A stretch of DNA of 64,000 bases from Arthrobacter sp. NicSoilB8 (GTDB lineage: Bacteria > Actinomycetota > Actinomycetes > Actinomycetales > Micrococcaceae). The stretch covers positions 124,001 through 188,000 of the forward strand of contig NZ_AP024655.1 of the NCBI RefSeq assembly GCF_019977355.1. Direction: 5' to 3'. Shown here one piece after another: positions 33,482 through 64,000 of the stretch (position 1 is the stretch's first letter; each line of letters starts with the position of its first letter). The notes under the pieces were generated by a model. The model was given only the letters and a program-made list of their open reading frames with translations, did no database searches and was not told the DNA's origin. Made by a program: the position numbers and the translations under genes.

Positions 33482-35887
33482 TCAGTTTGCCTCGGCGCCG
33501 ACCCCTGCCTCGACGGCCGCGCCGGCGAGCCGGAGCCAGGTGTCCACCACGGTGTCGGGGTTCAAGGAGACGGAATCGATGCCTTCCTCAACCAGCCACT
33601 CGGCGAAGTCGGTGTGGTCGCTGGGACCCTGGCCGCAGATGCCCACATATTTGCCACGTGCCTTGCAGGCCTTGATGGCCATGCTGAGGAGCTTCTTGAC
33701 GGCGAGGTTGCGCTCGTCGAAGCTGCCGGCGACGATCGCGGAGTCCCGGTCAAGGCCCAGGGTTAGCTGGGTCATGTCGTTGGAGCCGATGGAGAAGCCG
33801 TCGAAGTAGTCCAGGAACTCATCGGCCAGCAACGCGTTGGACGGCAGTTCGCACATCATGATGACCTCTAGGCCGTTTTCGCCCCGGCGCAGGCCGTTCT
33901 CCGCGAGCAGGTCGATGACGCCGCTGGCCTCGTCCACGGTGCGCACGAACGGGATCATCAGCTTGACGTTGGTCAGACCCATCTCGTTGCGGACGAAGGA
34001 CAGGGCCTCGCACTCGAGGTCGAAGCAGTCCCGGAAGGACGGTTCCAGGTACCGGGAGGCGCCGCGGAAGCCGATCATCGGGTTCTCCTCGTGCGGCTCG
34101 TAGGCGGGTCCGCCGACCAGGTTGGCGTACTCGTTGGACTTGAAGTCGGACATGCGCACGATCACCGGCTCCGGGGCGAAGGCCGCCGCGATGGTGGCCA
34201 CGCCTTCGGCCAGGCGCTTGATGTAGTACTCGCGCGGGCTGTCGTACGCGGCGATCCGCTCACGGATTTCCGCGGCGATGTCCGCCGGCTGGCTGTCCAG
34301 GTTCAGCAGCGCCTTGGGGTGGATGCCGATCTGGCGGTTGATGATGAATTCGAGCCGGGCCAGGCCCACTCCATGGTTGGGCAGCTGCGCGAAAGTGAAT
34401 GCCTGCTCCGGGGTGCCGACATTCATCATGACCTTGACGGGGGCCTCGGGAAGCTGGGTGATCTCGGTTTCCTCGACGCTGAAGTCCAGGATCCCCTCGT
34501 AGATCACGCCGGTCTCACCGTCGGCACAGGAGACGGTCACCTCGAGGCCGTCGGAGAGGGCGTCCGTGGCGTCCCCGGTGCCGACGACGGCAGGAATCCC
34601 CAGCTCCCGGGCAATGATGGCCGCGTGGCACGTGCGACCGCCGCGGTTGGTCACGATGGCGGAGGCACGCTTCATGATCGGTTCCCAGTCCGGGTCGGTC
34701 ATGTCCGCGACGAGGACATCGCCGGTTTCGAAGGCGGCCATCTGGTCGATCGCGGTGAGGATGCGGACGCGGCCGGCACCGATGCGCTGGCCGATGGCGC
34801 GGCCCTCGGCCAGCACCCGGCCGGTCCCGTTGAGCCGGAAACGGCTCAGGCTGCCGGTGGCCCGGCGGGACTGCACGGTCTCCGGGCGCGCCTGCAGGAT
34901 GTACAAGCCGCCGTCGATCCCGTCCTTGCCCCACTCGATGTCCATGGGGCGGCCGTAGTGCTTCTCGATGGCGACGGCGTGCCGGGCGAGCTGCTCGACG
35001 TCGTCGTCGCTGAGGCTGAAGCGGTTCCGCAAGGAGGCCTCAACCGGCACGAAGTCGATGGTGCGACCGATTTCGCGGCTGGTCGTGTAGGTCATCTGGA
35101 GGGCCTTCTCGCCCAGTCCGCGCTTAAGGATGGCGGGCCGGCCAGCTTGCAGCGCGGGTTTGTAGACGTAGAACTCGTCGGGATTGACGGCGCCCTGGAC
35201 GACCGCCTCGCCGAGGCCGTAGGAGGACGTGACGAACACGGCGTCCTGGAACCCGGATTCGGTGTCCATGGTGAACATGACGCCGGAGGCCCCGACGTCG
35301 GAGCGCACCATGCGCTGGATGCCGGCCGAGAGCGCCACCTCGGCATGTTCGAACTTGTGGTGCACGCGGTAGGCGATCGCCCGGTCGTTGTAGAGGGACG
35401 CGAACACGTCCTTGATGGCGATCAGGATGTTTTCGATGCCGCGGACGTTCAGGAAGGTTTCCTGCTGCCCGGCGAAGGAGGCATCGGGAAGGTCTTCCGC
35501 GGTAGCGCTGGAGCGGACGGCCCAGGAGAGGTCCTCGGAACCGCCGTGCTTGTCCACCAGCTGCTGGTAGGAGTTCCGGATCTGTGCTTCAAAGTCCGGC
35601 AGGAAGGGCGTCTCGCGCATGAGGGCCCGGATTTCCTGTCCTGCCGAGGCGAGGGCGGTCACGTCATCGGTGTCCAGGCCGACCAGCCGGTCGGCGATCT
35701 TCTGGTCCAGGCCGGAATCCGCCAGGAAGCTGCGGTAGGCATCCGCGGTGGTGGCGAAGCCGTCCGGGACCTGGACCCCGGCAGAGGTCAGATTCTGTAC
35801 CATCTCACCGAGGGAGGCGTTCTTTCCGCCCACCCGGTCCAGGTCCTTGAGTCCGAGTTCTGAGAACCACAGGATGTCTGTCGTCAT
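33482..35887 (-). CDS. ppsA: Phosphoenolpyruvate synthase
   Basis: An 801-residue enzyme making PEP from pyruvate and ATP. Domain order: ATP-grasp (about 1-340, [24 protein letters not shown]), phosphohistidine swivel (His421 in [23 protein letters not shown]) and C-terminal PEP/pyruvate TIM barrel ([30 protein letters not shown], catalytic Cys in GICGQGPSD). ATG 35887 has AAAGGAG eight bases upstream; the longer frame has no support. The regulator PpsR follows upstream on the same strand. It allows gluconeogenic growth on pyruvate-yielding substrates such as sarcosine-derived serine and sialic acid. Confidence 0.94.
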
Positions 35888-54134: not shown

Positions 54135-54626
54135 GCCGTGGCGCCCCAATCATTAGTCGGTACACGTTCGTTTGCTCTCGGCTCGATCGGTCACGACGCC
54201 CACCACTGACGCTCCAGTAAATCGCGGCCACCATCGCCCGGCAATACTCCTATCAGGTCGAATTATTGTCGGCCTTCAGGCTGGATCTTCAATGGCGTGT
54301 CGGCTGTGAATCTGCTGTGTATATCGGCGCCGGAACTCCCGAAAGCCCGGCTGCAAAGGGGCGGCGTGAGGGCCCGAAAATCCATAGTTTCTTAAAGCAA
54401 TACAACTGTTGACTAGTGAGCAACTTCACAGTTAGAGTTGCGAAACCGAAAAGCCGCCGGAAGGCGGTTTCGAGATCTCCAGGTGGAATGGATGGTGTGC
54501 GCGAACCGCCGCCGTCACTTCTTCGCAATTCCCTGCGCCACCAGCACCGCACCCGCACCGCACCCGCACTCGCACTCCGGCACGTCTTCTTCCGGCGTGC
54601 CCGCGTACATGAGAGGCATTTCCCCC
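54135..54626. other. 492-bp gap with promoter, operator and a long leader
   Basis: No gene is supported. The left half (54135-54400) shows nothing clear. The right half holds the promoter/operator at 54409-54441, then a stem-loop (CGAAA and CCGCC pairing with GGCGG and TTTCG, 54447-54472) and a CCGCAC-rich stretch (about 54538-54580) in a roughly 180-base leader of the ABC transporter operon. Confidence 0.5.
54409..54441 (+). promoter_or_regulatory. Predicted promoter and operator of the PotABCD-type operon
   Basis: TTGACT (54409-54414), 18-base spacer, TAGAGT (54433-54438). An inverted repeat GCAACT-N10-AGTTGC (54420-54441) overlaps the spacer and -10, suiting repression, perhaps by the downstream IclR protein. 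Confidence 0.5.
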
Positions 54627-55721
54627 ATGACAGCACTCCGTTCCACGCCCTTTGACCGCAGGCAGCTCCTCAAAGCGGCAGCGTTGACGCCGTTTGCGGG
54701 CCTGGCGCTCTCCGGCTGCGGGGCCAAGCCCGCCGAAAGCGCCGCGGCCAACAAGACGGTGACGGTCACGTCCTATGGCGGCTCGTACAACGACCAGCTG
54801 ACCCAGACGATCCTGGACCCGTTCTCCAAGCAGTCGGGGATCCAGACGACACTGCTGGCCAACACCAGCCTGGCCGCGCTCAAGGCCCAGGTTCAGTCCG
54901 GTGACGTGCAGTGGGACCTCGTGGAAATCACGGCGCCGGAGTATGAGGTGGCCGTGGCCGAGGGGCTACTGGAGAAGTTCGACTACGACATCATCAGTGA
55001 CAAGGGCCTGCCCGGCTATGCGAAGGCCGAATACGGCATCAAGTACCTGAGCTTCCTGTTTGTCATGGCGTGGGACCAGAAGGTCATTCCGGATGCCCAG
55101 GCCCCGAAGGACTGGGCGCAGTTCTTCGACCAGGGCAAGTACAGCACCAAGCGCTCGGTGTACAACCAGCTTTCCGACAGCTCCGTCCTGGAGGCGGCCC
55201 TGCTGGCCGACGGTGTCCCGTTCGACAAGATCTACCCCCTCGACGTCGACCGGGCCCTGCGGGTCCTGGGCCAGCACCCGGGCAAGGACCGGCTGCTCTA
55301 CCACGCTGCCAACCAGGAGCCCATCCAGCAGCTCACCTCCGGCGAGGTCTCGCTCTCCACCAGCTTCAACAACCGGATCAACGCAGCCCGCAACGACGGC
55401 GCGAAACTGAACTTCTCCGCCGAAAACGCCGTCCTGGCCGGCGACTACTTCGTGGTGCCGAAGGGCGCCAAGAACAAGGAAGCAGCCTTCAAGCTGATGA
55501 ACTTCATGTCCAACGACGCCGAGGCCGGCGCCGCGTTCGACAAGGTCACCAACCTGACCCTGGCCAACATTCCGGCGCTCTCCAAGCTGCCGAAGGACAT
55601 CGCCGACACGCTTCCCACCAGCCCCCTGCTCGCGGACAAGATCCTGGTCCGCGACGACAAATGGTGGTCGCAGAACCTGAAGAAGACCGAGCAGCAGTTC
55701 AAGCTCTGGCAGGCCAGCTGA
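54627..55721 (+). CDS. PotD-type ABC transporter substrate-binding lipoprotein
   Basis: A 364-residue family 1/6 solute-binding protein similar to spermidine/putrescine-binding PotD. The N-terminus carries RRQLLKAAAL (Tat-like) and lipobox ALSGC; the mature part begins VTVTSYGGSYNDQLTQTILDPF and contains DVQWDLVEITAPEYEVAVAEGLLEK and AVLAGDYFVVPKGAKNKEAAFKLMNF. ATG 54627 places the signal peptide properly; GAGAGG is ten bases upstream. Upstream in-frame ATGs (54609, 54438) are less likely. The cargo is a polyamine-like or small organic cation/anion, not determined. Confidence 0.88.
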   Translation: MTALRSTPFDRRQLLKAAALTPFAGLALSGCGAKPAESAAANKTVTVTSYGGSYNDQLTQTILDPFSKQSGIQTTLLANTSLAALKAQVQSGDVQWDLVEITAPEYEVAVAEGLLEKFDYDIISDKGLPGYAKAEYGIKYLSFLFVMAWDQKVIPDAQAPKDWAQFFDQGKYSTKRSVYNQLSDSSVLEAALLADGVPFDKIYPLDVDRALRVLGQHPGKDRLLYHAANQEPIQQLTSGEVSLSTSFNNRINAARNDGAKLNFSAENAVLAGDYFVVPKGAKNKEAAFKLMNFMSNDAEAGAAFDKVTNLTLANIPALSKLPKDIADTLPTSPLLADKILVRDDKWWSQNLKKTEQQFKLWQAS

Positions 55722-55722
55722 C

Positions 55723-56610
55723 ATGAGCAACGCAACCTTGGCGGGGTCGCGGCCCCGCGGCCGGGATTCCCCTCCTTCCGTTGAAACAACATCCCGACGG
55801 CGGCGCAGCAGCTGGTGGCTGCTGCTGGCACCGATCCTTGCCTTCGACGTCGTGCTGTTCCTGACCCCGCTGGGAAAACTGGTCGGCGCAAGCTTCGCCG
55901 ACAGCGCCTACCAGCGGGTCCTCGAGGACCCGCTGGTGATGCGCGCGCTGCTCAATACCCTGACCATCAGCCTGGCCAGCACCGTCGTCACGGTGGTCCT
56001 GGGCTACATCATCGCCATGGTTCTCTGGCGTGCCGGGAACGTCGCCCGGGTGATCCTGTTCGCCGTCGTACTCCTGCCGTTCTGGACCGGAATCCTGGTG
56101 AAGAACTTCGCCTGGGCGGTCCTGCTGCAGGACAACGGGCTGGTCAACGCTTTCCTGCAGGGCATCGGACTGACGGATGCGCCGATCCCGCTGCTACACA
56201 ACCGGTTCGCCGTGATCGTGGGCATGGTGCACTGCCTCCTGCCGTATGCGGTGTTCCCGATCTTCTCCTCGCTGACATCCATCGATGACAGGCTGGGGCT
56301 CGCGGCGCGGTCGCTGGGCGCCCGGGAAGGATCCGTCTTCCGCAGGATCACCCTTCCGCTGAGCGTGCCCGGCATCTCCGCGGCCGGGCTGTTGGTTTTC
56401 ATCATCAGTACGGGCTTCTTCATCACGCCCGTGGTCATGGGTGGACCCGGCGACATGATGATCGCCAACCAGATCGACTACTACGCCCGGCAGCTCACGG
56501 ACTTCTCCGGCGCCGCTGCGCTGGCTGTCATCCTGACGGTCATGGTCAGCATCCTCGTGGCCGTCTACCAGCGCGTGCTCAAGGCAGGGGGCCAGCATGA
56601 AGACAACTAA
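55723..56610 (+). CDS. PotB-type ABC transporter permease
   Basis: A 295-residue membrane protein with six spans. The first span WWLLLAPILAFDVVLFLTPLGKL and the EAA loop DRLGLAARSLGAREGSVFRRITLPLSVPGI are typical of polyamine-type importers. It starts one base after the binding-protein stop and overlaps the second permease by 14 bp, so the genes form one operon. Confidence 0.9.
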   Translation: MSNATLAGSRPRGRDSPPSVETTSRRRRSSWWLLLAPILAFDVVLFLTPLGKLVGASFADSAYQRVLEDPLVMRALLNTLTISLASTVVTVVLGYIIAMVLWRAGNVARVILFAVVLLPFWTGILVKNFAWAVLLQDNGLVNAFLQGIGLTDAPIPLLHNRFAVIVGMVHCLLPYAVFPIFSSLTSIDDRLGLAARSLGAREGSVFRRITLPLSVPGISAAGLLVFIISTGFFITPVVMGGPGDMMIANQIDYYARQLTDFSGAAALAVILTVMVSILVAVYQRVLKAGGQHEDN

Positions 56611-57424
56611 CCCGCAGCACCGTCTCCTGGTGCTGCTGTCCATCCCGGTCTTCCTCTTCCTCGTGATTCCGACGGCGATTGTGGTGCCGGTGGCGCTCAA
56701 CGACAGCCGCTACATCACGTTCCCGCCGGAGGGGATTTCCTTCGCTGCGGTGGCAGGATTCTTCGCGGACGCGGCATGGACCTCGGCACTGACGGCCAGC
56801 CTCCAGTCCGCGGGGATCGCCGTCGTGATCGGTGTGCTGCTGGGCGCCACCGCCGCGATCGGGCTGCACGGGCGGAAGTTCCCGGGCCAGTCCGCCGTGG
56901 TGGGCCTGATCCTGGCGCCGATGATCGTGCCGACCGTGGTGCTGGCGCTGGCGTTCTACCAGTTCTTCATCTCCGTCGGCATGGTGGGCAGCATCATTCC
57001 CATCGGCCTGGCGCACGCCGTGATTGCAACTCCGTACGTCTACCTGACCACGCGGGCCAGCCTCGCCGGGCTCAATCCCGCGCTGGTCCGGTCGGCGCAG
57101 AGCCTCGGGGCAGGCGCCCTCTCGGTTCTCCGCCACGTGTATCTGCCTGTCATCCTGCCGGGACTGATCTCGGGGGCACTTTTCGCGTTCTCCGTGTCCA
57201 TTGACGAGACCGTGATGTCGCTGTTCATGCAGTCCCCGGGGGCCACCACCTTGCCGGTGAAAATGTTCACGGACATCCAGTTCAACCTAACCCCGAAGAT
57301 CGCCGTGTCGTCCGCCCTGCTGGTCAGCGTGGCCACCATCGGTCTTCTTCTCCAGGTCATGTTTGTCCTCAAGCGCCGCTCTTCAGCCCGGATGCTGCCC
57401 CTGGCCGTGTCAACACAAACGTAA
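56597..57424 (+). CDS. PotC-type ABC transporter permease
   Basis: A 275-residue permease with six spans. The EAA loop NPALVRSAQSLGAGALSVLRHVYLPVILPGLISG and the SIDETVMSLFMQSPGATTLPVKMF stretch match the PotC class. It pairs with the preceding permease; the ATPase gene follows nine bases after its stop. Confidence 0.9.
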   Translation: MKTTNPQHRLLVLLSIPVFLFLVIPTAIVVPVALNDSRYITFPPEGISFAAVAGFFADAAWTSALTASLQSAGIAVVIGVLLGATAAIGLHGRKFPGQSAVVGLILAPMIVPTVVLALAFYQFFISVGMVGSIIPIGLAHAVIATPYVYLTTRASLAGLNPALVRSAQSLGAGALSVLRHVYLPVILPGLISGALFAFSVSIDETVMSLFMQSPGATTLPVKMFTDIQFNLTPKIAVSSALLVSVATIGLLLQVMFVLKRRSSARMLPLAVSTQT

Positions 57425-57433
57425 GGAAAGTCG

Positions 57434-58555
57434 ATGACCGCATCAGTAATATCCGCCGGTGCTATTCCGCAGTCCGGACGTGCCGCGCAGGGAGCCATTG
57501 AGCTCCGCCGGGTCAGCAAGAGCTACGGCGACGTGGTTGCCGTGGACGAGCTGGACCTGACCGTTCAGCCCGGCGAGTTCGTCACTCTGCTGGGTCCCAG
57601 CGGCTCCGGCAAGACCACAACGATGATGATGGTGGCCGGGTTTGAAGGGCATACCGCCGGCTCAGTCCTGATCGACGGCAGGCCGGTGGACACGCTGCCG
57701 CCGCGGGACCGGAATCTCGGCGTCGTGTTCCAGAACTACGCCCTGTTCCCGCACATGAGCGCCCTTGAAAACGTGGAATTCGCTCTGCGGATGAGGAAGG
57801 TTCCGAGCGCGGAACGGCGGCAGCGTGCCTCGGACGCGCTGGACCGAGTGGGCCTTGGCGCGATGGGCGACCGCAAGCCCCGCCAGCTCTCCGGCGGGCA
57901 GCAGCAGCGGGTGGCGCTGGCCCGGGCGCTGGTCTTCAACCCGGCCGCACTGCTCCTGGACGAGCCGATGGCTGCCCTGGACAAGCGACTGCGTGAGCAG
58001 ATGCAGGAAGAGATCAAAACCCTGCAGAAGAGTCTGGGCATCTCCGTACTGTTCGTGACCCATGACCAGGACGAGGCCATGGCCATGTCGGACCGGATTG
58101 TGGTGATGAGGGACGGGAAGATCATCCAGTCAGGGCCGCCCGAGGAAGTCTACAACCACCCCCTCACGGACTGGGTGGCCAGCTTCCTCGGCGACACCAA
58201 CCTGATTCCCTGCACCATTGTGGAGCGGAACGGCGAGGAAGCACTGGTTGACCTGGGCGGACTTGGCCTGGCAAAGGTCCGGGACCGCGGTGCAAGCGGC
58301 GAGAACTACGCCGTCTCCATCCGCCCGGAGCACCTCAAATTCAAAACGCGGGCCACGGCGGACAACGGATGCGCAGCGACCCTGGTGTCGTCCACGAATC
58401 TGGGCGCCACGGTCCGCCACCGCCTCACGGCCGGCGGCCACGAACTCCAGCTTCGTGAGCTGAGCTCCGACAAGGGCGCCGGCATCCTGCCAGCCGAGGA
58501 GCTGTGGGTGGGCTGGGATGCAGACAAGGCCCAGCTGCTGGTTCTGGAGTCCTGA
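57434..58555 (+). CDS. PotA-type ABC transporter ATP-binding protein
   Basis: A 373-residue ATPase. Walker A GPSGSGKTT at 54-62, Q-loop VVFQNYALFPHMS, signature LSGGQQQRVALARAL, Walker B LLLDEPMAALD, H-loop FVTHDQDEAM, and a C-terminal TOBE domain (about 290-370, VSIRPEHLKF). Last gene of the four-gene operon. The tandem repeat region begins right after it. Confidence 0.93.
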   Translation: MTASVISAGAIPQSGRAAQGAIELRRVSKSYGDVVAVDELDLTVQPGEFVTLLGPSGSGKTTTMMMVAGFEGHTAGSVLIDGRPVDTLPPRDRNLGVVFQNYALFPHMSALENVEFALRMRKVPSAERRQRASDALDRVGLGAMGDRKPRQLSGGQQQRVALARALVFNPAALLLDEPMAALDKRLREQMQEEIKTLQKSLGISVLFVTHDQDEAMAMSDRIVVMRDGKIIQSGPPEEVYNHPLTDWVASFLGDTNLIPCTIVERNGEEALVDLGGLGLAKVRDRGASGENYAVSIRPEHLKFKTRATADNGCAATLVSSTNLGATVRHRLTAGGHELQLRELSSDKGAGILPAEELWVGWDADKAQLLVLES

Positions 58556-59350
58556 TTCCGGGGGCAGGCAGGGGCTAAGGGCAGGGCTGTAGAGGCCGGT
58601 CGCAGGGGCTGTACGCGGGTTCAGGGCCGGCCCTGAGATCTCCCGGGGGACATGCCCTCCTTTGGCGCCCAGGGATGGACATATGCCCACTATGTCCATC
58701 CCTGAGGCCCACCACGGGGCATGTCCCAAAGGCGGCACAGGGCATGTCCGCAGCTCAGGGGCGGCACGGGGCATGTCCCAAGGGGGCGCCATGGCGAATG
58801 ACCGGACAATGCTTGGCTTCAGCCACAGGGCTTGATTTCACGGACAGGTCCCGACAATGTGCGGTCCTCATGTGCGCACCACCCGGCCCAGGGGGCCGCG
58901 GGACATGCCCTCCTGTGGCATCCAGGGTTGGGCATAAGCCCATTATGTCCATCCCTGAGGCGCAGCGCGGGGCATGTGCGCTCCACCCGGCCGAGGGGGC
59001 CGCGGGGCATGCCCTCCTGTGGCGTCCAGGGTTGGGCATAAGCCCATTATGTCCATCCCTGAGGCGCAGCGCGGGGCATGTGCGCTCCACCCGGCCGAGG
59101 GGGCCGCGGGGCATGCCCTCCTGTGGCGTCCAGGGTTGGGCATAAGCCCATTATGTCCATCCCTGAGGCGCAGCGCGGAGCATGTCCCAAAGGGGGCGCG
59201 GGGCATGTCCACTGCTCAGGCGCAGCGCGGGGCATGTCCACCGGTAAGCGCAGGCGGGGGCGGCGGCCTGCGGACTACACTCGATTCCGGGCGGCCACTC
59301 GGCCCTTGACGGCCAAGAGCAGGCCCGACGCCCGCGACGAGGAGGTCACG
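58556..59350. other. Repeat-rich intergenic region
   Basis: About 795 bp with no supported gene. It contains a perfect 12-bp palindrome (58672-58683 and 58691-58702), about a dozen GGGCATG/GGACATG-type motifs spread over 58650-59240, and the 104-bp tandem array listed separately. Open frames here run through the repeats, but the 104-bp period shifts the frame each copy, so they are unlikely to be coding. Confidence 0.75.
58869..59185. repeat. 104-bp tandem repeat array, three copies plus a partial
   Basis: Units start with CATGTGCGC at 58869, 58973 and 59077, and a partial begins at 59181. Units two and three differ at one base in 104; unit one is more diverged. Each unit holds ATGTCCATCCCTGAGG, a GGGCATAAGCCCATTATG stretch and two CATG-centred GC-rich boxes. 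No inverted terminal repeats or target duplications are obvious. Confidence 0.9.
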
Positions 59351-60145
59351 ATGGCCGGCGGCAGCCGCGAACCCGGCAGGACGGTGACCTCGAAGGTCCT
59401 GGCCATCCTGGAAGCCTTTGAAAAGTCACGGGGCGCCCTCAGCCTGACCGACATCGCCGAAAAGTCCGGCCTCCCGCTGAGCACCGCGCACCGGCTGGTC
59501 AGCGAGCTCACCGACTCGGGCTTCCTTTCCCGCGAGCCCAACGGCCGCTACCAGTTGGGCATCCGCCTCTGGGAGCTCGCCCAGAATACGGGGCGCCAGC
59601 TGCGCGACGCGGCCCGGCCCTACGTCCAGGACCTGTTCTCACTCACCGGCGAAACTGCGCACCTGGCCGTCCGGGCCGGCCACGAAGTGCTGTACATCGA
59701 CCGCGTCTACGGCTCCAAGCGGGTGCCGCGGGCCTCCCGGGTCGGCGGCCGGCTGCCCATGCACGCGACCGCCGTCGGGAAGGTCATCCTGGCCTTCGAG
59801 GAGGACTGGGTGCGCGACGCCTATCTGAACCGGCAGCTCGAGCGGCACACCGCGCACACCCACGTTGACCCCAAGAAGCTGGCCGCCGAACTCACCCAGA
59901 TCCGGGAGCAGGGGTATGCCACCACCCTCGAGGAAGTCCGGCTGGGGTCCTGCTCCATCGCCGTTCCGGTCTTCCACACCGGCAGGATCGGCGCCGCCAT
60001 TGGCCTGGTGCTGCCGACCAGCCAAGCCGGCACGTTGACCCGGCATTTGCCGGTCCTGAGGGGCATCGCGGCGCAGATCGAGCGCGCCACGGCCCGGATC
60101 CCGCTGGAAACGCTGCTGGGCAGCCATGTCGCGGGAACGGACTGA
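59351..60145 (+). CDS. IclR-family transcriptional regulator
   Basis: A 264-residue regulator: winged helix at about 10-70 (LSLTDIAEKSGLPLSTAHRLVSELTDSGFLSREPNGRYQLG) and effector domain to about 255 (LFSLTGETAHLAVRAGHEVLYIDRVYG, GGRLPMHATAVGKVILAF, LGSCSIAVPVFHTGRIGAAIGLVLP). ATG 59351 has GGAGG five bases upstream; longer frames are repeat-derived. It lies between the PotABCD operon and the P450 operon, so either could be its target. Confidence 0.9.
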   Translation: MAGGSREPGRTVTSKVLAILEAFEKSRGALSLTDIAEKSGLPLSTAHRLVSELTDSGFLSREPNGRYQLGIRLWELAQNTGRQLRDAARPYVQDLFSLTGETAHLAVRAGHEVLYIDRVYGSKRVPRASRVGGRLPMHATAVGKVILAFEEDWVRDAYLNRQLERHTAHTHVDPKKLAAELTQIREQGYATTLEEVRLGSCSIAVPVFHTGRIGAAIGLVLPTSQAGTLTRHLPVLRGIAAQIERATARIPLETLLGSHVAGTD

Positions 60146-60296
60146 ACCGCCCACGGCGGCGCCGGACCTTCTCCAACTGGCTTCCGCTCAGTGGAAGTAA
60201 TCCCTGCCATTTCGGGGTGATGGGGGCCACACTGGTGAACAGAACCCCCGGCATGCACTGCCGCTGCCGGCGGGACCGGAAAACCAAGGAGCCTAG

Positions 60297-61574
60297 ATGT
60301 CATCGTCGACTGAAACGGCCGGCCGCTGTCCCTTCGGACACGGCGCCGAAGCCCCCGCGGGGCACCACGGCTACGAGCCGTTCCAGATGAAGGATCCCTT
60401 CCCCGCCTACGCCGAACTCCGGGCCGAGCAGCCCGTGATGTTCGACGAGCGGATCGGCCTTTACGTCGTCTCCCGCTATGACGACATCAAGGCCGTCTTC
60501 GAAGACTGGGAGACCTTCTCCAGCGAAAACGCCCAGGCGCCCGTCCGCGAACGCGGCGCCGCGGCAAGGAAGATCATGGACGACGGCGGCTTCACCGCCT
60601 ACTCGGGCCTGTCCGCCCGGCGCCCGCCGGAGCACACCCGCATCCGCGCCGTGGTCCAGAAGGCCTTCACGCCCCGCCGCTACAAGGCGCTCGAACCCTT
60701 CATCCGGCAGAACGTCGTCGGGCTGCTCGAAAAGATGCTGGCCCGGCCGGAACACCGCGGCGACATGGTCAAGGACCTCGCCTACGACGTCCCCACCATC
60801 ACCATCCTCACCCTGATCGGCGCCGACGTCTCCCAGGTGGACACCTTCAAGCGCTGGAGCGATTCCCGCGCCGCCATGACGTGGGGCGACCTCACCGACG
60901 AGGAACAGGTCCCGCACGCCCACAACCTCGTGGAGTACTGGCAGGAATGCCTCCGCCTGGTCCGGGTGGCCCACGAGGACGGCGGCGACAACCTCACCGC
61001 GGACCTGGTCAAAGCGCAGCAGGACGGCGCGGAAATCTCCGACCACGAGATCGCCTCCGTCCTCTACAGCCTGCTCTTCGCCGGCCACGAGACCACCACC
61101 ACCCTGATCTCCAATGCCCTCCGCGAACTCCTGGCCCGGCCCGAGCAGTGGAAGCAGCTGGTGGAGGACCCGAAGAAGATCCCCGCCGCCATCGACGAGG
61201 TCCTGCGCTACGCCGGCTCGATCGTCGGCTGGCGCCGCAAGGCCCTCAAGGACGCCGAGGTCGGCGGCGTCGCGATCGAGGAGGGCGCGCAGCTGCTGCT
61301 CCTGATGGGCTCCGCCAACCGCGATGAGAACAAGTTCGACGCCGGCGAGGACTTCGACATCACCCGCCCCAACGCCCGCGAGCACCTGTCCTTCGGGTTT
61401 GGCATCCACTACTGCCTGGGCAACATGCTCGCCAAGCTTCAGGCCAAAATCGCGCTCGAGGAAGTGGCCCGGCTCGCCCCGGAACTGCAGCTGGAGAACC
61501 CGGAAGCCATCTCCTTCCGTGAGAACCTCTCGTTCCGCGTCCCCGAGACCGTCCCCGTCAGCTGGAAGGCCTGA
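60297..61574 (+). CDS. Cytochrome P450, CreJ-like
   Basis: A 425-residue soluble bacterial P450. The I-helix AGHETTT is at 262-268, the K-helix EVLRYAG lies near 301, and heme-ligand Cys373 in FGFGIHYCLG. ATG 60297 follows AAGGAG. The next two genes resemble the two parts of an ATP-dependent phenol-phosphorylating synthase, the same association as CreJ with CreH/CreI of Corynebacterium glutamicum, where the P450 oxidises the methyl group of phosphorylated 4-cresol. Ferredoxin and reductase genes are not in the window. Substrate assignment is inference. Confidence 0.9.
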   Translation: MSSSTETAGRCPFGHGAEAPAGHHGYEPFQMKDPFPAYAELRAEQPVMFDERIGLYVVSRYDDIKAVFEDWETFSSENAQAPVRERGAAARKIMDDGGFTAYSGLSARRPPEHTRIRAVVQKAFTPRRYKALEPFIRQNVVGLLEKMLARPEHRGDMVKDLAYDVPTITILTLIGADVSQVDTFKRWSDSRAAMTWGDLTDEEQVPHAHNLVEYWQECLRLVRVAHEDGGDNLTADLVKAQQDGAEISDHEIASVLYSLLFAGHETTTTLISNALRELLARPEQWKQLVEDPKKIPAAIDEVLRYAGSIVGWRRKALKDAEVGGVAIEEGAQLLLLMGSANRDENKFDAGEDFDITRPNAREHLSFGFGIHYCLGNMLAKLQAKIALEEVARLAPELQLENPEAISFRENLSFRVPETVPVSWKA

Positions 61575-61579
61575 GAAAT

Positions 61580-62764
61580 ATGCACAGCAACGAATACGTC
61601 CAGTTCTTCGACGGCGGCATCGAACCGAAACTCGAAAACCTCGGCGGCAAGGGCGCCTCCCTGGTCACCATGACGTCCGCCGGCATGCCCGTCCCGCCCG
61701 GCTTCGTGGTCACCACGGCCCAGTTCGACGCCTTCATGGAGGAAGCCGGCATCACCCGGGATATCCACCAGCTCCTCGCTGGACTGGACCCCGAGGACAT
61801 GGGCCAGGTGGACAGGGTCTCCGCCGCGATCCGCGAGGACATCCGCTCCCGCCCGGTGCCCCAGGCCCTGCGCGAGCTCACCGTCACCGCCTACGAGTCC
61901 CTGATGTCCCGCTTCGAGGATCCCGTCCCGGTGGCCGTGCGCTCCAGCGCCACCGCCGAGGACCTCCCGGACGCCTCCTTCGCCGGCCAGCAGGACACCT
62001 ACCTCTGGCTCGACGGCGTCAAGGCCGTCACCGAGCACATCCGCCAGTGCTGGGCCTCGCTCTTCACCTCCCGCGCCATCATCTACCGGCTCAAGAACAA
62101 CATCCCGAACGAGGGCCTCTCGATGGCGGTCGTGGTGCAGAAGATGGTCAACGCCCGCGTCTCGGGCGTCGCCATCACCATGGACCCCACCAACGGCGAC
62201 CGCTCCAAGATCACTATCGACTCCTCCTACGGCGTGGGGGAGATGGTGGTTTCCGGCCAGGTCACGCCGGACAACATCATGCTGGACAAGGTCACGCTGA
62301 CCGTTGTCTCCGAACACCTTGGCGACAAGCACGCCGAACTCGTCCCGGACGCCGGTGCCGGCCGCCTCGTGGAGCGGGAGGTCGACGCCGAACGGCGCGG
62401 CCGGCGCAGCCTCACCGACGCCGAGCTCACCGCCGTCGCGCAGATGGCCAAGCGCGCGGAGAAGCACTACAAGTGCCCGCAGGACATCGAATGGGCCCTC
62501 GACGCGGACCTGCCCGACGGCGAGAACCTGCTCCTGCTGCAGTCCCGCCCGGAAACCGTGCACTCCTCGAAGCCGGCGGCGGTCAAGCAAACGGTGCCCT
62601 CGGGCGCCGGCGGCTATTTCAGCGGACTCAGCCCCGCGACTCCTGCGGCCGTGCCCGCATCCACGACGGCGCCAGGCGCCACACCGTCGTCGACGCCCCC
62701 GCCCTCAACCGGCGGCTTCAACCTCGGCAGCATCACAGCCTCGCTGCTGAAGCCGTCCTTCTAA
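61580..62764 (+). CDS. Stand-alone PEP-synthase-like ATP-binding subunit (CreH/PpsB-like)
   Basis: A 394-residue protein equal to the N-terminal ATP-grasp domain of PEP synthase: [54 protein letters not shown] near 120-140, SSYGVGEMVVSGQVTPDNI and the end motif CPQDIEWALD...LLLLQSRPETV. The swivel and pyruvate domains are missing. About 60 Pro/Ser/Thr/Ala-rich residues follow (after about 335). In phenylphosphate synthase and the Cre system a protein of this type supplies the ATP-dependent phosphoryl transfer to a phosphohistidine on the partner. ATG 61580 lies five bases after the P450 stop. Confidence 0.85.
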   Translation: MHSNEYVQFFDGGIEPKLENLGGKGASLVTMTSAGMPVPPGFVVTTAQFDAFMEEAGITRDIHQLLAGLDPEDMGQVDRVSAAIREDIRSRPVPQALRELTVTAYESLMSRFEDPVPVAVRSSATAEDLPDASFAGQQDTYLWLDGVKAVTEHIRQCWASLFTSRAIIYRLKNNIPNEGLSMAVVVQKMVNARVSGVAITMDPTNGDRSKITIDSSYGVGEMVVSGQVTPDNIMLDKVTLTVVSEHLGDKHAELVPDAGAGRLVEREVDAERRGRRSLTDAELTAVAQMAKRAEKHYKCPQDIEWALDADLPDGENLLLLQSRPETVHSSKPAAVKQTVPSGAGGYFSGLSPATPAAVPASTTAPGATPSSTPPPSTGGFNLGSITASLLKPSF

Positions 62765-62832
62765 ACAGTTTTGACCCGCTAGTCCGCTCCGTCACCCAGG
62801 CCCAACGCCGAGCCCGTATTGAAAGGACCGCC

Positions 62833-64000
62833 ATGTCCCTGAAGTCCTTCCCCAAGCCCTCCGAGCTTCCGGTTCCCGCCGGGGCCGAGGGCTGGGAAAA
62901 GATCTACCCGTACTATCTGGTCTTCCAGGACAAGCTCAAGGAGCAGGAGGATGCCAAGTTCTGGTTCTGCGACAGCCAGCACTGGCCCACCGTATTCAAG
63001 CCCTTCGAGACGATCGGCGGCGAGTTCGCGGTCAAGTGCCTGGGCCAGTACAACGCCCGGCACCTGATGATCCCCAACGCCAACGGCATCGAGTTCCGCG
63101 TCCACCTGGGCTACCTCTACATGTCGCCCATCCCCGTGCCGGAAGACCGGATCGCCGCCCGAGTGCCCCTGTTCGAACAGCGCGTGGGCCACTACTTCCA
63201 GAACTGGGACCAGCTCCTCAAGCAGTGGCACGTGAAGGTCAAGGGCACCATCGACGAGATGGAAACCATCTCCTTCCCCAGGCTCCCGGACATGGTCCCC
63301 ATGGAGGACATCCTCTCCGGCAAGGGCAAGGACGGCTCCGAGAAGCTCCTGGAAAGCTACGACCGGCTCATCCAGCTGGCCTACCAGAACTGGCAGTACC
63401 ACTTCGAGTTCCTCAACCTGGGTTACATCGCCTACCTGGATTTCTTCAACTTCTGCAAGCAGGTCTTCCCCAACATCCCGGACCAGTCCATCGCCACCAT
63501 GGTCCAGGGCGTCGACATGGAGCTCTTCCGCCCGGACGACGAGCTCAAGCAGCTGGCCAAACTCGCCGTCGAACTGAAGCTGCAGACCCATTTCGGGAAC
63601 ACCGACGACGTCCACGCCACCCTGGCTGCCATCGCCGCCGCCCCCGGCGGGGACCGGTGGACCGCCCAGTACGAGGCCGCCAAGGACCCCTGGTTCAACT
63701 TCACCGTGGGCAACGGCTTCTACGGCCACGACAAGTACTGGAACGAACACCAGGAAATCCCGCTCGGCTACATCGCGGACTACATCCGCCGGGTGGACGA
63801 GGGCCAGGAAATCATGCGCCCGGTCGAGGCCCTGATCGCCGAACGCGACCGCATCATCGAGGAATACCGCGACCTGCTGGAAGGCGAAAACCAGGCCCTC
63901 TTCGACGCCAAGCGCGGGCTCGCCGCCACGGCCTACCCGTACGTGGAGAACCACAACTTCTACATCGAGCACTGGACCATGGGCGTCTTCTGGCGCAAGA
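62833..64000 (+). CDS. PEP-synthase-related partner subunit of phenol-phosphorylating type (partial, runs off the window)
   Basis: ATG 62833, preceded by GAAAGGA, opens a frame without stop to the last base (389 codons seen). It begins MSLKSFPKPSELPVPAGAEG and contains FWFCDSQHWPTVFKPFETIGGEF, HYFQNWDQLLKQWHVKVKGTI, FFNFCKQVFPNIPDQSIATMVQG and YPYVENHNFYIEHWTMGVFW. This helical, Trp-rich region resembles the substrate-binding section of the larger phenylphosphate-synthase-type subunit. The phosphohistidine swivel domain (GGxxSH/CH-type) should follow to the right, outside the window, and is the test of this call. Confidence 0.75.
   Translation, partial: MSLKSFPKPSELPVPAGAEGWEKIYPYYLVFQDKLKEQEDAKFWFCDSQHWPTVFKPFETIGGEFAVKCLGQYNARHLMIPNANGIEFRVHLGYLYMSPIPVPEDRIAARVPLFEQRVGHYFQNWDQLLKQWHVKVKGTIDEMETISFPRLPDMVPMEDILSGKGKDGSEKLLESYDRLIQLAYQNWQYHFEFLNLGYIAYLDFFNFCKQVFPNIPDQSIATMVQGVDMELFRPDDELKQLAKLAVELKLQTHFGNTDDVHATLAAIAAAPGGDRWTAQYEAAKDPWFNFTVGNGFYGHDKYWNEHQEIPLGYIADYIRRVDEGQEIMRPVEALIAERDRIIEEYRDLLEGENQALFDAKRGLAATAYPYVENHNFYIEHWTMGVFWRK

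Follow-up and report, generated by a model that had tools for sequence, protein, structure and literature searches.

A probable complete cre operon for alkylphenol catabolism, cut by the right edge of a 64-kb stretch of the Arthrobacter sp. NicSoilB8 genome

Gene content, order and conservation of the locus

We analyzed a stretch of 64,000 nucleotides of the Arthrobacter sp. NicSoilB8 genome (5.17 Mb, two contigs), here called the window, which covers positions 124001-188000 of a 4.93 Mb contig, with a further 27 kb added beyond its right edge, for which the window numbering was continued (L007 position + 59000 = window position). At that edge lies a run of genes, all on the plus strand, extending from an IclR-family regulator through creC (59351 to 69686), which very probably constitutes a complete cre operon of the Corynebacterium glutamicum type that the window cuts through (Table 1). 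A first-pass annotation, made from the window alone, had described a cytochrome P450, a lone phosphoenolpyruvate (PEP) synthase ATP-grasp domain and a large gene without that domain in tight tandem, and had proposed a Cre-like phenol-phosphorylating system. The tandem was confirmed by family matches and by the seven intergenic gaps from creJ to creC, being 5, 68, -8, 49, 2, 41 and -4 bases, and the proposal itself gained support from the gene order, the identity of the P450 and the downstream cre genes, with the anticipated genes for ferredoxin, reductase, phosphohydrolase and alcohol and aldehyde dehydrogenases found directly to the right of creH.

Table 1. Features of the locus, with positions in window numbering
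Feature	Position	Strand	Remarks
IclR-family regulator	59351..60145	+	IclR_C and HTH_IclR; opens the module; start set at an ATG, with longer frames present upstream
Candidate palindromic operator TTCCGCTCAGTGGAA	60182..60196	.	115 bases ahead of the creJ start
creJ, cytochrome P450, 425 aa, heme Cys373	60297..61574	+	PF00067, 99 bits
creI, ATP-grasp subunit of phenol-phosphorylating synthase, 394 aa	61580..62764	+	PF01326 (PPDK_N), 366 bits
C-terminal tail of CreI (residues 330-394), a low-complexity linker with GGFNLGSITASLLKPSF at its end	62567..62761	+	Tail comparison
creH, 628 aa	62833..64719	+	Substrate-binding domain inside the window (to 64000), swivel domain and His562 beyond it
creG, short-chain dehydrogenase (SDR), 273 aa	64712-65533	+	Outside the window
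creF, [2Fe-2S] ferredoxin, 106 aa	65583-65903	+	Fer2; outside the window
creE, ferredoxin reductase, 445 aa	65906-67243	+	Pyr_redox_2 and Reductase_C; outside the window
creD, HD phosphohydrolase, 252 aa	67285-68043	+	HD domain PF01966; outside the window
creC, aldehyde dehydrogenase, 548 aa	68040-69686	+	Aldedh; outside the window

A P450 scan of genome contigs gave 129 relatives, and the locus counts reported here use the best 80 of these 129 (individual loci carry L numbers). All eight genes from creJ to creC were present in the same order and on the same strand in 75 of the 80, as counted from first-pass tblastn and frame-based blastp matches combined, tblastn alone having missed D, G or F in several loci owing to thresholds. 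Four loci (L021, L033, L057 and L088) had cre genes truncated by the contig end, and L069 was out of order in the combined call and in order by tblastn alone. The carriers included Arthrobacter, Pseudarthrobacter, Glutamicibacter, Brevibacterium, Corynebacterium, Rhodococcus, Nocardia, Nocardioides, Streptomyces and others. CreH was 75-97% identical in most of the aligned relatives, with 67% as the lowest value; in A. oryzae DSM 25586 (L010) the two kinase subunits, CreI and CreH, were 91-97% identical to those of the window.

The first-pass annotation had set out beforehand two outcomes that would speak against it, namely a missing swivel-domain His in the full product of the 62833 frame, and a P450 of an unrelated family without redox or phosphatase genes nearby. 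The histidine is present, as H562 in the phosphohistidine motif TDIGGMMSH, inside the PEP-utilizers swivel domain that spans residues 528-598 (PF00391, 82 bits), and the model NF006150 spans almost the full length of CreH (1287 bits, cut-off 650), with no ATP-grasp match found in the family search of the 628-aa product. Over 403 aa the P450 shares 77% identity with PDB chain 5xjn, which, like 5gwe, we take to be the C. glutamicum CreJ (the listing says just 'Cytochrome P450'); in the P450 tree (82 rows) the partner of 5xjn is Corynebacterium sp. J010B-136, with support of 100/99, and the window P450 sits among Arthrobacter sequences. It was also clear from orthologue alignments, taken without proteins under a minimum length (hence n = 74 to 81), that catalytic residues are intact throughout: CreJ heme Cys373 (81/81), CreH His562 (78/78), Y180 and K184 of the CreG SDR (78/78), three ferredoxin Cys of CreF (78/78; three of the four were scored), the CreD HD metal ligands H80, H110, D111, H140, H172 and D190 (77/77) and C347 of the CreC aldehyde dehydrogenase (74/74). 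As a separate observation, CreH ends in a His-rich tail, GPGAHSHSHV (approximately 64687-64716), which many CreH proteins of Micrococcaceae, Brevibacterium and Corynebacterium keep and those of Streptomyces, Nocardia and Rhodococcus lack.

The split kinase and the predicted pathway

Since the ATP-grasp and swivel domains lie in separate frames, the pair could be read as a decayed or fragmentary PEP synthase beside an unrelated P450. That explanation we regard as vanishingly improbable: the separate creI-creH pair recurs across relatives, which already refutes it; the creI core is under purifying selection (ratio of non-synonymous to synonymous polymorphism, pN/pS, of 0.21 in 14 close rows); and the other five PPDK_N genes of the genome are fused, occupying 845-983-aa open frames and each having, on its own strand and no more than 1.5 kb away, a match to the swivel domain. 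Because those five genes are fused and the split pair recurs in relatives, CreI is not a broken PEP synthase. One of the five lies inside the window, at 34856-35839 on the minus strand, with an 845-aa frame and an adjacent swivel match, and is likely an ordinary fused enzyme of the PEP-synthase type. No second HpeHI-like pair was found in the genome, where the sole full-length match to CreH was CreH itself.

In a kinase tree of 47 rows, in which L050_k, L121_k and L128_k form long branches, the 21 sampled cre CreH proteins, window CreH included, made up one cre-only clade (100/100), in line with the first-pass reading. Its sister consisted of ten proteins (99/95), the two clades being joined at 100/99, and the Hpe-like L050_k fell outside both. 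AlphaFold2 models, built from 65 rows for CreI and 62 for CreH, had mean predicted local distance difference test (pLDDT) scores of 82.3 and 78.7, respectively; the top Foldseek match of the CreI model was HpeI (PDB 9goj), and the top six of the CreH model were rifampin phosphotransferase, at modest TM-scores (template modelling scores) of 0.34-0.50 by query length.

CreHI has been described as the kinase starting 4-cresol catabolism (PMC12167813), and CreH, CreI, CreJ, CreE, CreF and CreD as an alkylphenol bio-oxidation system (PMC9549646); these and the other papers referred to by PMC numbers are cited from excerpts of their text. By analogy, CreI would take a phosphate from ATP and load it onto the swivel-domain His562 of CreH, which would transfer it to the phenolic hydroxyl of a 4-alkylphenol, with 4-cresol the likeliest substrate. 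The P450 CreJ, supplied by the NAD(P)H reductase CreE and the [2Fe-2S] ferredoxin CreF, would hydroxylate the alkyl group of the resulting aryl phosphate, whereupon the HD hydrolase CreD would remove the phosphate, and CreG and CreC would oxidize the alcohol and then the aldehyde to give 4-hydroxybenzoate, which PobA and then the protocatechuate branch would take further. A gene for a PobA-like hydroxylase (407 bits) lies beside an IclR gene in the genome, which also has a pcaH above its cut-off with pcaG adjacent, and a pobA-like gene (>= 45% identity) was seen in the fetched flanks of 13 of the 80 cre loci; the pobA-like and pcaGH genes thereby agree with 4-hydroxybenzoate as the end product.

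A kinase of this kind could instead act on another class of phenol, as in the hydroxyphenylethanone (Hpe) pathway, with the P450 serving something else, given that the same split kinase begins both the Hpe and the phenylphosphate pathways (PMC12167813, PMC9618137). We find this very unlikely, however, with window CreH inside the cre clade (100/100) and L050_k outside it, with the remaining cre genes all present, and with the frames read between 64719 and 70393 showing neither a biotin-carboxylase nor a carboxyltransferase gene. Upstream, the family scans likewise gave no Hpe-type carboxylase HpeCBA, which was not searched for genome-wide. More plausible, if still rather unlikely, is that the same operon prefers longer 4-alkylphenols, or ring-substituted ones, to 4-cresol (ethyl, propyl or guaiacyl compounds). 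The C. glutamicum CreHIJ has been used on several alkylphenols (PMC9549646), whereas the close orthology (CreH 75-97%, minimum 67%) gives no sign of a shift, while being compatible with one.

For the 4-alkylphenol pathway, genes, gene order, intact catalytic residues, orthology and a conserved operator were observed directly, and every reaction, as well as the substrate, is carried over from C. glutamicum. Several points weigh against it as a description of what this organism does. A sequence alone cannot reveal substrate range; the PobA-like match falls below its curated cut-off (407 vs 538.7 bits); and no solved structure was matched by sequence for CreD. The operon is, moreover, an accessory trait, patchy in the genus, because the P450 was found at E <= 1e-120 in only 27 of 150 sampled genomes, the window's own counted. 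As it stands, the operon predicts that 4-alkylphenols, which occur in lignin and in pollution streams, can be used via aryl phosphates by this organism and by about a fifth of the sampled genus (27/150).

The IclR regulator, its surroundings and the CreI tail

Upstream neighbours were counted in the 74 loci having at least 3 kb of flank. An IclR gene (>50% identity) lay at most 4 kb upstream of creJ in 64 of these, so that the regulator is not lineage-specific, contrary to what the first-pass annotation had considered possible. Alignment of the IclR-creJ gaps contained a conserved palindrome, and the pattern TTCCRCTSAGYGGAA, derived from that alignment itself, was found with 0, 1 and 2 mismatches in 22, 15 and 12, respectively, of 67 gaps (window included), thus in 49/67, compared with 1 of 1,340 mononucleotide-shuffled gaps at up to two mismatches. 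The copy at 60182-60196 was the sole match in the window with at most two mismatches, 0.51 being expected. Several of the gaps without TTCCRCTSAGYGGAA bear another palindrome in the same place, for example TTCCGTCCAACGGAA in L062, L071, L078 and L085, which would fit an operator site changing together with its regulator. Because of the palindrome (49/67 gaps vs 1/1,340 shuffles), the IclR regulator is placed in the cre module, where it would control the operon through the site ahead of creJ. Its nearest NCBIfam model was PcaR/PcaU/PobR, with a score below the cut-off, and no sigma-70 promoter or terminator was found in the IclR-creJ gap.

A second HD-domain hydrolase, 30-41% identical to CreD, lay at most 4 kb upstream of creJ in 35 of the 74 loci (e.g. 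L019 8300-9007), usually just ahead of the IclR gene; the window's genome had no second CreD-like HD hydrolase, CreD there matching itself alone. The PotD-like ATP-binding cassette (ABC) transporter to the left of the IclR gene (54438-58555) was rejected as part of the module, being near cre in 1 of 80 loci (L015). Between its ATPase gene and the IclR gene there is a 104-base tandem repeat in three copies, 97% alike (58869-59185), and a further 29-base repeat at 59195-59261. Approximately 3.5 kb to the right of creC, a 1011-aa frame at 73208-76243 (L007 14208-17243) reads like a Tn3-family transposase, a label given from reading the sequence without a family search; together with the patchy spread in the genus it would fit a mobile or often lost operon.

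After the last ATP-grasp strand, CreI continues into a linker that varies in length and abounds in P, S, T, A and G, and it carries a recurring peptide near its C-terminus, GGFNLGSITASLLKPSF in the window. The first-pass annotation had thought that the Pro/Ser/Thr-rich tail might be lineage-specific, but it proved to be family-wide, HpeI included. The Cre-type end peptide is approximately F-x-[LF]-[GS]-S-I-T-[AS]-S-L, and its core motif was present in 55 of 76 Cre tails, compared with a mean of 0.5 and a maximum of 3 of 76 in 500 shuffles. About nine Arthrobacter and Pseudarthrobacter CreI proteins end otherwise, e.g. with YFSGFSAGTLKPSA. In the 14 close rows having the tail, the last 12-codon motif had a pN/pS of 0.16, compared with 0.72 in the linker and 0.21 in the domain. 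Comparable end peptides are found on the I subunits of other two-component kinases, e.g. DPMASIVSTLTAPVHARK (L111), and HpeI has a similar ending both in R. rhodochrous (the 9goj sequence) and in Arthrobacter sp. C2.

We infer that the CreI tail may be a tethered docking peptide and, more broadly, it is possible, if a little short of an even chance, that in split small-molecule dikinases (Cre, Hpe and relatives) the ATP-grasp subunits share a disordered linker of varying length and a short amphipathic end peptide that docks weakly onto the partner subunit or another protein of the operon. HpeH and HpeI have been reported to form no stable complex (PMC12167813), and docking, if true, would let the end peptide keep both halves of the enzyme together, which could explain how the split kinase holds together. 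Counting against docking, the motif is absent from 21 of the 76 Cre tails, and its pattern was written after the tails had been seen, among related rows; comparison of all 50 rows, distant ones included, fails to separate motif from linker (pN/pS 0.77 and 0.86, with 0.38 for the domain); and the single-chain CreI model leaves the tail unfolded, with pLDDT <50 at residues 337-358 and 360-394. A role in targeting to an encapsulin or microcompartment was rejected, there being no PF04454 or PF00936 match in the genome. No description of the CreI tail was found in the open-access literature searched.

A sister operon and comparison with known systems

The surroundings of the sister clade in the kinase tree were fetched for eight of its ten proteins (L138-L145, same phylum; G386 and G028 left out). 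All eight loci had, on one strand and in the same order, two extradiol-dioxygenase-like genes, a histidine-phosphatase-family gene, kinase I, kinase H and a Rieske oxygenase with a LigXa-like C-terminus, the families having been verified on the proteins of L139, L140, L144 and L145 only. A HAD hydrolase came next in three of the eight, a distant aldehyde dehydrogenase (36-38% identical to CreC) was near in two, and none of them had a reported match to creJ, G, F, E or D. In this sister operon a phenol would be phosphorylated, oxygenated by the Rieske enzyme, dephosphorylated and ring-cleaved, making it a possible phosphate-primed Rieske pathway, of which no description was found in the open-access literature searched. 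It suggests that oxygenases of more than one kind make use of a phosphate handle added ahead of oxygenation. The cre operon of the window, a further copy of a characterized pathway, has mainly annotation value; the comparative set adds to it the conserved candidate IclR operator, the conserved CreI end peptide and the second HD hydrolase that about half of the loci have in front of the regulator.

Among known systems, HpeHI, the hydroxyphenylethanone kinase of Rhodococcus rhodochrous GD02, is a two-component dikinase with the same domain split as CreHI, acting on another substrate class and, unlike cre, having a downstream carboxylase and no P450. The Hpe-like L050 protein is 51% identical to window CreH. 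In L050 (108-8974; Arthrobacter sp. C2) an Hpe-type kinase pair lies directly to the left of a cre operon, followed after the pair by genes reading like a biotin carrier, biotin carboxylase, carboxyltransferase, NagD-like phosphatase and acyl-CoA synthetase, labels taken from the sequence without a family search; the chromosome of this strain has a second cre operon (L038). PpsAB, the phenylphosphate synthase of Thauera aromatica, is likewise split and phosphorylates phenol with ATP (PMC12167813), in an anaerobic phenol route, its likeness to CreHI being one of description. Rifampin phosphotransferase (RPH) offers the closest folds to CreH, but it is a single chain that inactivates an antibiotic, whereas CreHI is two chains in a catabolic operon.

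The closest counterpart is the C. glutamicum cluster of cg0637 creC, cg0638 creD (the phosphohydrolase), cg0639 creE, cg0640 creF, cg0641 creG, cg0642 creH, cg0644 creI and cg0645 creJ (PMC7764795). It has, as described there, the same eight products, and the window order corresponds to cg0645-cg0637, from J to C; the operon found here is thus of an already characterized type, well conserved and ordinary. It differs in the tail of its ATP-grasp subunit, with Corynebacterium-type CreI proteins having 36-39 residues after QSRPE (L052, L054 and L057) and window CreI having 69, in a longer Pro/Ser/Thr/Ala-rich linker.

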